Shown in pieces: positions 9,862 to 17,801 of a stretch of 64,000 bases of DNA; the stretch's first letter is position 1, and every line of letters starts with the position of its first letter. The notes beneath the pieces were generated by a model. The model was not told where the DNA came from. It worked only from the letters and a program-made list of their open reading frames with translations, and did not search any database. Source of the DNA: Marmoricola sp. (GTDB lineage: Bacteria; Actinomycetota; Actinomycetes; Propionibacteriales; Nocardioidaceae); assembly GCA_025964775.1 (NCBI GenBank), contig JAOPYE010000040.1:62001-126000 (forward strand), read 5' to 3'. The position numbers and the translations under genes are program-made.

Positions 9862-10040
9862 GCAAGGACCTCACGCCGGCTGAGCGGGCCGAACGCCGCC
9901 GCCGGCTCGCCGAGGTCTTCGGCGACGTACTGCCCGACCAGACGACCGACGAGACCGGCCCGGACGCAGCGGACCCGGCCGGTCAGGTCGATGCGAGCGA
10001 GGACTGGCTGTTGCGCCAGGTCCCGCCGCACCACGGCTGA
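9858..10040 (+). CDS. 60-aa charged protein translationally coupled to the epimerase
   Basis: Too short to appear in its own right in the ORF track (it is the tail of the 9186-10040 shadow ORF). ATG overlaps the upstream TGA. The first 25 residues (MSKDLTPAERAERRRRLAEVFG) predict a basic amphipathic helix, followed by an acidic stretch and the end DWLLRQVPPHHG. The good codon use, overlap and sensible composition support a real gene. No family recognised; the shape resembles small actinobacterial accessory proteins that end in a DxWLLxxRPPHHG-like motif. Confidence 0.7.
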   Translation: MSKDLTPAERAERRRRLAEVFGDVLPDQTTDETGPDAADPAGQVDASEDWLLRQVPPHHG

Positions 10041-10114
10041 GGTTTCGACAAGCTCAACCGACGGTGGCTAGGTCGGTTGCTGGCCGAACCCCGGTGGTTG
10101 AGCCTGTCGAAACC
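10041..10114. repeat. Inverted pair of a 19-bp palindrome-arm repeat (GGTTTCGACAGGCTCAACC type)
   Basis: Left arm GGTTTCGACAAGCTCAACC (10041-10059) and right arm GGTTGAGCCTGTCGAAACC (10096-10114) are complementary at 18 of 19 positions around a 36-bp loop. It starts immediately after the stop of the 60-aa gene and lies before the convergent mscL stop, so it may also end transcription. The right arm recurs exactly at 16704-16722. Confidence 0.8.
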
Positions 10115-10124
10115 CGTGGCTGTG

Positions 10125-10472
10125 TCAGGCCTGGCGCTGGGCGAGCAGGTCGCGGATCTCCTCGAGCAGGGCGATGTCTGCCGGCTTGCCGTCCTCGGGG
10201 GTCGGGAAGAACCTTTCCTTCGTCCTGACGTACGGGACGACCACGAAGAAGTAGACGACCGCCGCCAGGAGCACGAAGGCGATCACGGCGTTCATGAACG
10301 CACCGAAGCTGTTGGCGTGGTCGCTGAAGACCTTGCTCCAGCTGGACGGCAGCTGCGCGGTCAGCCACGAGGTGAAGGTCTTGACGACGAGACCGAACGC
10401 GGTACCGATGATCACGGCGACGGCAAGGTCGATCAGGTTGCCCTTGAGGATGAAGCTCTTGAAGCCGTTCAT
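10125..10472 (-). CDS. mscL: Large-conductance mechanosensitive channel MscL
   Basis: 115 aa, slightly shorter than the E. coli protein (136). MNGFKSFILKGNLIDLAVAVIIGTAFGLVVKTF holds the N-terminal amphipathic helix and pore-lining TM1; AFMNAVIAFVLLAAVVYFFVVVPY is TM2; the C-terminal LLEEIRDLLAQ helix forms the cytoplasmic bundle. The homopentamer opens on membrane tension to release solutes during osmotic downshock. ATG at 10472. It sits in the block of housekeeping envelope genes typical of actinobacterial chromosomes near moeA/sepX. Confidence 0.96.
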   Translation of the reverse strand: MNGFKSFILKGNLIDLAVAVIIGTAFGLVVKTFTSWLTAQLPSSWSKVFSDHANSFGAFMNAVIAFVLLAAVVYFFVVVPYVRTKERFFPTPEDGKPADIALLEEIRDLLAQRQA

Positions 10473-16524: not shown

Positions 16525-17310
16525 GTGTCAGGAATCCTCTTCGCGGTGATCGCGGTCGGGTGGGCCGCCTACCTTCTGCCCATGGCGCTGAAGCGTCACG
16601 ACGACGTCGCGAAGAGTCGTCCGGTCGAGGAGTTCTCCAGCTCGATGCGCGTGCTGGGCCGTCGGCCCGCAGCAGCGGCAGCTCCCGCGGTGTCGTCGCC
16701 GGTGGTTGAGCCTGTCGAAACCGTTGCAGCCCAGACCACCACCCCCACCATCACTCGCGAAGCAGCTCGCCGCGCAGCCCGCCGTCGCCGCCGTGTGCTG
16801 GCCGTGCTCCTGCTCGCTGCGGTCGCCGTCTCGGCGACCAGCTATCTCGGATACACGCCGTGGCTCACGACCGCGATTCCAGGCGCCCTGGTGGTCGCCT
16901 TCCTCGTGGTCGCCCGGCTCACAGTCCGGGCGCAACAGGTTCGCCGCGTTGCGCCCGTCCAGCACAGTGTGGCGCCGGCGCCGCTCACTGCCGAGGAGAT
17001 CGAGCCGGACCTCGGAGGCGAGGACACGGTCGGCCTCTCCCGCGACGAGCTCGCCGACGCGGTCGCTGCCCCCGTCCTCGACGAGGGCAGCCTGTGGGAC
17101 CCCTTGCCGGTCACGTTGCCGACGTACGTCAACAAGGCGCGTGCCCGTCGTACGGTCCGCACGATCGAGATCACCACAACGACGACCGGGATCACGTCCT
17201 CGGGTCACGACGCCGCCGACTCTGCCCTCGCACGTGAGGCCGAGGCGCTGCAGGCAGAGGTAGAAGCCGAGGCCGACATCGTCGAGGCACCCAAGGCCGC
17301 CGGAGCCTGA
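16525..17310 (+). CDS. sepX: SepX/GlpR-like septal membrane protein
   Basis: 261 aa. An N-terminal membrane segment (SGILFAVIAVGWAAYLLPMAL) is followed by the conserved KRHDD and a short cytoplasmic stretch, then RRAARRRRRVLAVLLLAAVAV and a second hydrophobic region (TTAIPGALVVAFLVVARL), then a long acidic cytoplasmic tail with DPLPVTLPTYVNK. The N-terminal pattern and synteny with moeA and rimJ match SepX of Streptomyces (septum stabilisation) and GlpR of Corynebacterium (membrane receptor of gephyrin-like Glp). GTG start. Residues 59-70 (VVEPVET) are encoded by a copy of the genomic repeat found at 10096. Confidence 0.75.
   Translation: MSGILFAVIAVGWAAYLLPMALKRHDDVAKSRPVEEFSSSMRVLGRRPAAAAAPAVSSPVVEPVETVAAQTTTPTITREAARRAARRRRRVLAVLLLAAVAVSATSYLGYTPWLTTAIPGALVVAFLVVARLTVRAQQVRRVAPVQHSVAPAPLTAEEIEPDLGGEDTVGLSRDELADAVAAPVLDEGSLWDPLPVTLPTYVNKARARRTVRTIEITTTTTGITSSGHDAADSALAREAEALQAEVEAEADIVEAPKAAGA
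16704..16722. repeat. Exact copy of the 19-bp repeat inside the sepX-like coding region
   Basis: GGTTGAGCCTGTCGAAACC is identical to 10096-10114. Here it is read in frame as part of PVVEPVETV in the linker between the membrane segments, so a mobile palindrome arm appears to have been absorbed into a coding sequence. Confidence 0.85.

Positions 17311-17360: not shown

Positions 17361-17801
<441 letters not shown>

Follow-up and report, generated by a model that had tools for sequence, protein, structure and literature searches.

A REP-like palindrome arm, amplified as species-specific subtypes and probably inserted in frame into sepX and other genes of Nocardioides

In the passages that Di Nocera, De Gregorio and Rocco 2013 (PMC3733652) devote to CGTC-tagged REPs, these elements follow a rule of an 8-9 bp stem beginning with AT and a loop of 4-5, carry the tag CGTC (or TGTC/CCTC) and are reported without a dedicated transposase. 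The same passages place RPE-4 and RPE-6 among the CGTC types. They also describe the Rickettsia RPEs as in-frame palindromic repeats kept in protein genes as an added peptide, and report REPs that differ between two Xanthomonas species at nearly the same position of recB.

We analysed a 64-kb stretch of the genome of a Marmoricola sp. (GCA_025964775.1, contig JAOPYE010000040.1), hereafter the window, in which a repeat of this general kind was found both between genes and within the gene for the division protein SepX. The features concerned are the following.

16525-17310, plus strand: sepX, coding for the divisome protein SepX/GlpR of 261 aa (ORF; NCBIfam NF050099).
16700-16722, plus strand: repeat copy in sepX, of which 16702-16722 is read as VVEPVET (sequence, pattern scan, orthologue alignment).
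10041-10064, minus strand: left arm of an intergenic inverted pair, the CGTC-preceded variant GGTTGAGCTTGTCGAAACC (inverted repeat search, pattern scan).
10091-10114, plus strand: right arm, the CCGGT-preceded GGTTGAGCCTGTCGAAACC, of the same type as the sepX copy (inverted repeat search, pattern scan).
10041-10114, no strand assigned: the whole REPIN-like dimer (fold z-score -6.9; further dimers of the same build in the genome).

The original prediction was that the 19-mer GGTTGAGCCTGTCGAAACC of an intergenic inverted pair recurs exactly in sepX, giving three copies in the window. We found this 19-mer on the plus strand at 16704-16722, within sepX, and at 10096-10114. The identity extends to the 23 bp of CGGTGGTTGAGCCTGTCGAAACC, 16700-16722 being identical to 10092-10114, i.e. 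the sepX copy equals the right intergenic arm. The number of three copies was right, but only two are exact; the left arm (10041-10059, minus strand) is the variant GGTTGAGCTTGTCGAAACC, which differs from GGTTGAGCCTGTCGAAACC by 1 base. In a pattern scan of the window at up to 3 mismatches, 3 matches were observed versus 0.07 in dinucleotide shuffles, while at least 15 of 19 positions matched at 16 of 128,000 window positions, three of these being the real copies. The inverted pair was also confirmed, with 24-nt arms that are 88% complementary and spaced by 26 nt (inverted repeat search). It lies between convergent genes, directly after the stop of an ORF ending at 10040, and RNA of 10030-10125 is predicted to form a long hairpin (-58.2 kcal/mol, z = -6.9). 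The sepX ORF scored 205 bits against NF050099 (SepX/GlpR; cut-off 150), and the predicted reading of 16702-16722 as VVEPVET was correct, these being codons 60-66 of 261. An Rfam search of the window returned tRNA only; one tRNA gene (17361-17433) lies directly downstream of sepX.

Counts over the whole 3.93-Mb genome bore out the proposal of a dispersed REP-like family. The 18-mer GGTTGAGCYTGTCGAAAC is present in 21 copies on both strands, compared with about 1e-4 expected from base composition, and the 13-base core TGAGCYTGTCGAA in 43; the reversed control gave 0 for each. Besides the pair in the window, three inverted pairs of the same build were found elsewhere, four in all. The two arms of each pair (L001, L013, L015 and L017; G000) differ in flank, with CCGGT before one and CGTC or CGCC before its partner, so the dimers have unlike partners. 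Copies are flanked by sequences of the CCGGT, CGTC or GTGCT type; here CGTC precedes 7 of the 21 copies and CGGT most others, while in N. marmorisolisilvae (G018) the flank is mostly GCT or GTT. This genome also has a second subtype, CGTCGAGCYTGCCGAGACG, in 13 copies (contigs C1, C5, C6, C8, C11, C19, C24, C34 and C52).

The repeat consists of a nearly fixed core, GAGCYTGYCGA, within a covarying 4-bp stem. Among 71 core copies from foreign loci, which had not been selected by the search pattern, the 4 flanking positions on each side were complementary in 79-86%, compared with 32-46% expected from column composition, and GC, CG, TA and AT pairs all occurred. The Nocardioides subtypes show compensatory swaps at pair 4-16 (T-A/C-G), pair 1-19 (G-C/C-G) and pair 2-18 (G-C/A-T). 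GA faces GA between stem and loop. This anatomy is REP-like, the broad definition being a 20-40 bp palindrome with a conserved stem. Folding did not predict a stable hairpin for the lone 19-mer, and the idea of single arms working as hairpins is weakened accordingly.

Like the CGTC REPs as described in the passages cited above, these are short palindromes without a dedicated transposase, occurring in inverted pairs with unlike partners, placed beside 3' ends and also within genes. The CGTC tag precedes 7 of the 21 copies here and is missing from the others. By the published text rule, on which this comparison is based, the stem differs: it has 4 contiguous bp before GA opposite GA, instead of 8-9, and starts with GG, CG, CA, GA or CC rather than AT. 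With the GTAG REPs and REPINs it shares imperfect palindromes, dispersal, inverted pairs and species-specific subtypes, but the GTAG tag is missing, the flanks being those given above, and the Nocardioides genomes that bear the repeat have no RAYT gene. In its behaviour the repeat resembles the Rickettsia RPEs and REPs found within genes. Retention in frame within protein genes is shared with the RPEs, whereas the host is another one, the sequence is probably different as far as compared, and single arms here add only about 5-10 residues. We class the repeat with the REP and RPE elements, as a probable new member that the text description sets apart from the CGTC families. A text search of the available literature found no mention of the 13-base core; an 11-base part of it is present in 52 papers, and the 30 listed among these seem unrelated judging by title.

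The family is patchy in Nocardioides, the genus to which we assign this genome. The 18-mer GGTTGAGCYTGTCGAAAC occurs 108 times in N. marmorisolisilvae, 87 times in G001 and 0-10 times in other congeners (reversed control 0). Other genomes have amplified subtypes of their own. The subtype GGTCGAGCYTGTCGAGAC is present in 79 copies in G015, 109 in G002 and 38 in G014; G016 has CGTCGAGCYTGTCGAGACG and CATCGAGCTTGTCGAGATG, G008 has GGTTGAGCYTGCCGAAACC (182 matches to the common pattern) and G019 has CGTCGAGCYTGCCGAGACG (105 matches), while G003, G007 and G012 were close to background in a relaxed search. Outside the genus, GGTTGAGCYTGTCGAAAC was found in Treponema, Bacteroidota, Chloroflexota, Burkholderiales and many actinobacteria (at least 118 stretches). 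At many copies in N. marmorisolisilvae (L134, L125, L127, L118, L137), a shortened copy lies 20-30 nt upstream and consists of the same flank and the initial 8-12 nt of the repeat, which looks like a tandem duplication of flank and half repeat. The same genome contains tandem arrays within genes or at gene ends (L072, L073, L114) whose spacings are multiples of three (33, 36, 60 and 96 nt), one of them in a Pro/Glu-rich protein with at least 8 repeat copies.

We aligned 20 SepX sequences, one of which aligned poorly. The nearest orthologues (G007, G021 and G016; 73-75% identity) lack VVEPVET, and the insertion in sepX looks real by this comparison. SepX of N. marmorisolisilvae has two exact copies of the repeat, one per loop, each read as VEPVET, and is the only one of the 20 with loop 2 occupied. 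SepX of G015 also contains VVEPVET, but its coding DNA differs from the copy here at two synonymous sites. The original prediction named an ancestral VVEPVET with synonymous divergence as the observation that would speak against insertion. The nearest orthologues do not support such ancestry, and the G015 differences do not rescue it, because they equal the subtype of that genome, GGTCGAGCYTGTCGAGAC, compensatory stem change included. The three carriers require three changes when mapped on a tree built from the SepX core together with the neighbouring acetyltransferase. An essential division gene had been thought a notable host, but in Streptomyces a null mutant of sepX is impaired yet viable, and SepX has three membrane segments with two largely disordered cytoplasmic regions between them (PMC8748795). 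The insertion sites are consequently permissive, the argument from an essential host falls, and insertion into a largely disordered region is less remarkable.

As predicted, copies enter coding regions without breaking the frame, and sepX is one host among several. Coding capture was correctly foreseen and its scope was understated, as many genes and several species are affected. By a conservative codon-usage census of genome stretches, 3 of 21 copies in this genome and roughly 20 of 100 in N. marmorisolisilvae are clearly intragenic, and the remaining copies are not all proven intergenic. In-frame copies were found in SepX, NrdJ, TopA, NirB, GlgE, BagB and an HGD-like enzyme. NrdJ is the host here besides sepX; the hosts in N. 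marmorisolisilvae include TopA, NirB, GlgE, the ATPase BagB, Lhr, a CheA-like protein, a nickel-insertion (LarC-like) protein and the HGD-like cupin. In orthologues from up to 8 congeners the flanks are conserved and the loop is variable at the copy site, and the loop DNA splits into two groups, with 15-19 of 19 positions matched or with 13 and below.

Several of these loops are occupied in more than one species. The HGD-like loop carries the repeat in four species, in forward orientation in N. marmorisolisilvae and G019 and in reverse in G008 and G016. The NirB loop is occupied in N. marmorisolisilvae, G016 and G019, the BagB loop in N. marmorisolisilvae, G016 and G008, and the GlgE loop in N. 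marmorisolisilvae, G016 and this genome. The abundant subtype of the host genome is carried exactly in G008 (HGD-like, BagB), G019 (NirB) and G016 (HGD-like, NirB, GlgE), and with 1-3 bases off in the HGD-like copy of G019, the BagB copy of G016 and the GlgE copy here. The NrdJ linker reads SVEPVET here and VEPAET in G008, the latter matching that genome's own subtype. Leaving out N. marmorisolisilvae, from which the loops had been chosen, the repeat was present in 9 of 20 loops of REP-rich genomes and in 0 of 13 of REP-poor genomes (p = 0.004), a count in which four loops were judged from peptide alignment only and the species are not independent in phylogeny. The presence of both orientations at one loop, together with the matching of subtypes, argues for repeated independent insertion, and the alignments indicate that such insertion probably recurred in the same loops of different species. 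This recurrent, subtype-tagged insertion is what makes the finding interesting.

Compared with unoccupied orthologues, the loop of NirB is longer by about 6 residues, that of BagB by 10 and that of TopA by 5. Alignments to PDB structures agree on about 5 extra residues in TopA and show a longer loop in GlgE, whereas the Lhr linker is not longer than in the mycobacterial protein. One in-gene copy sits at the N-terminus, the NrdJ match ends before the insertion, and for the HGD-like protein the PDB search found no relative. One of the six reading frames of the repeat contains TGA. Use of the five open frames in 16 genes of N. marmorisolisilvae is uneven (VEPVET type 7, VSTGST type 7, FRQAQP 2, LSLSKP 0, GFDRLN 0; p = 0.003). 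Hydrophilic, flexible repeat peptides thus appear to be tolerated and others purged.

Three explanations without recurrent insertion were weighed. VVEPVET might be an ordinary or ancestral Val/Glu/Pro-rich linker whose DNA came to match the intergenic repeat by convergence; V, E, P and A abound in this variable loop, the natural sequence of G012 there is VEVEPVTV, and the G015 copy differs at two synonymous sites. However, the 23-bp identity covers synonymous sites, with about 1e-4 18-mers expected in this genome, the copy is missing in the nearest orthologues, and the G015 differences are exactly those of its abundant subtype, all of which makes convergence very improbable. We give hardly any credence to a selected word, such as a DNA uptake or segregation signal, that arises via point mutation. 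DNA uptake sequences are dispersed on both strands, in coding and intergenic DNA, with preferred reading frames, and the repeat shares these properties; but the loops of NirB, BagB and TopA are lengthened, copies are few and patchy with many congeners lacking them, and the stems covary between species. A single old insertion per loop, followed by gene conversion between repeat copies to the local subtype, would likewise make loop copies match the abundant subtype of the host, and at SepX loop 1 and at the NrdJ linker more than one species has a copy, read in the same frame. Yet conversion does not fit the two orientations of the HGD-like loop, the varying flanks and positions, the lack of any trace in REP-poor species or a SepX loop 2 filled only in N. 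marmorisolisilvae. We regard it as quite unlikely and infer that copies arrive by insertion and not by conversion of an old copy; at loop 1 of SepX, where carriers are few, a single old insertion with several losses may have occurred.

Dispersed REP-like palindromes with inverted pairs would also be expected of a classic RAYT-mobilised REP/REPIN family whose Y1 transposase acts in trans or was recently lost. A search for Y1_Tnp (PF01797) covered 59 relatives, a further 27 genomes bearing the repeat and 299 genomes of the family, with a positive E. coli control. The RAYT transposase suggested for checking in the original prediction was not found: the domain was absent from the 24 Nocardioides searched and present in 2 of the 299 family genomes, and the core was not found near any actinobacterial Y1 locus examined. 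At that sensitivity, a present-day recognisable RAYT is excluded in the genus Nocardioides, and RAYT was rejected as the mobiliser, no Y1 locus examined having the GGTTGAGC form nearby. Two of the three Niastella Y1 loci (L282 and L287) have five relatives of the repeat, of the CCCTGAGCYTGTCGAAGGG type, versus 0.6 expected from genome density, a post hoc lead picked out of many loci. A RAYT-mobilised family is, in our judgement, unlikely.

We consider it highly probable that a REP-like palindrome arm, amplified as species-specific subtypes, inserted in frame into sepX and other genes. The 19-23 bp word would be one arm of a REP-like palindromic element, some copies of which form inverted pairs and thereby long hairpins between genes. 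Each Nocardioides genome would amplify its own species-specific subtype of the element, which would insert at many places, genes included, mostly as single arms. Insertions would survive where the frame is kept, the stop-containing frame avoided and the loop permissive, leaving new linkers of 6-10 residues (VEPVET, VSTGST), so that selection on the encoded peptide probably filters the copies. In sepX, a single CCGGT-type arm would have entered the first cytoplasmic loop. It is conceivable, although we hold this wider reading only tentatively, that a GAGCYTGYCGA REP superfamily extends over several phyla, is still amplified in Nocardioides without Y1 and repeatedly enters the same permissive loops.

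Capture of palindromic repeats in frame can here be followed as a replicable and traceable process, in several congeners and in central enzymes (TopA, NrdJ, NirB and GlgE), with the subtypes serving as tags of origin and the same loops apparently hit repeatedly. The spread of REPs without RAYT becomes testable in one genus that has both REP-rich genomes (about 80-180 copies) and REP-poor ones. Our results suggest that repeat capture, and not a functional motif, accounts for VEPVET and VSTGST peptides in such proteins. If the superfamily reading is true, selfish hairpin DNA would be a standing source of new linker peptides.
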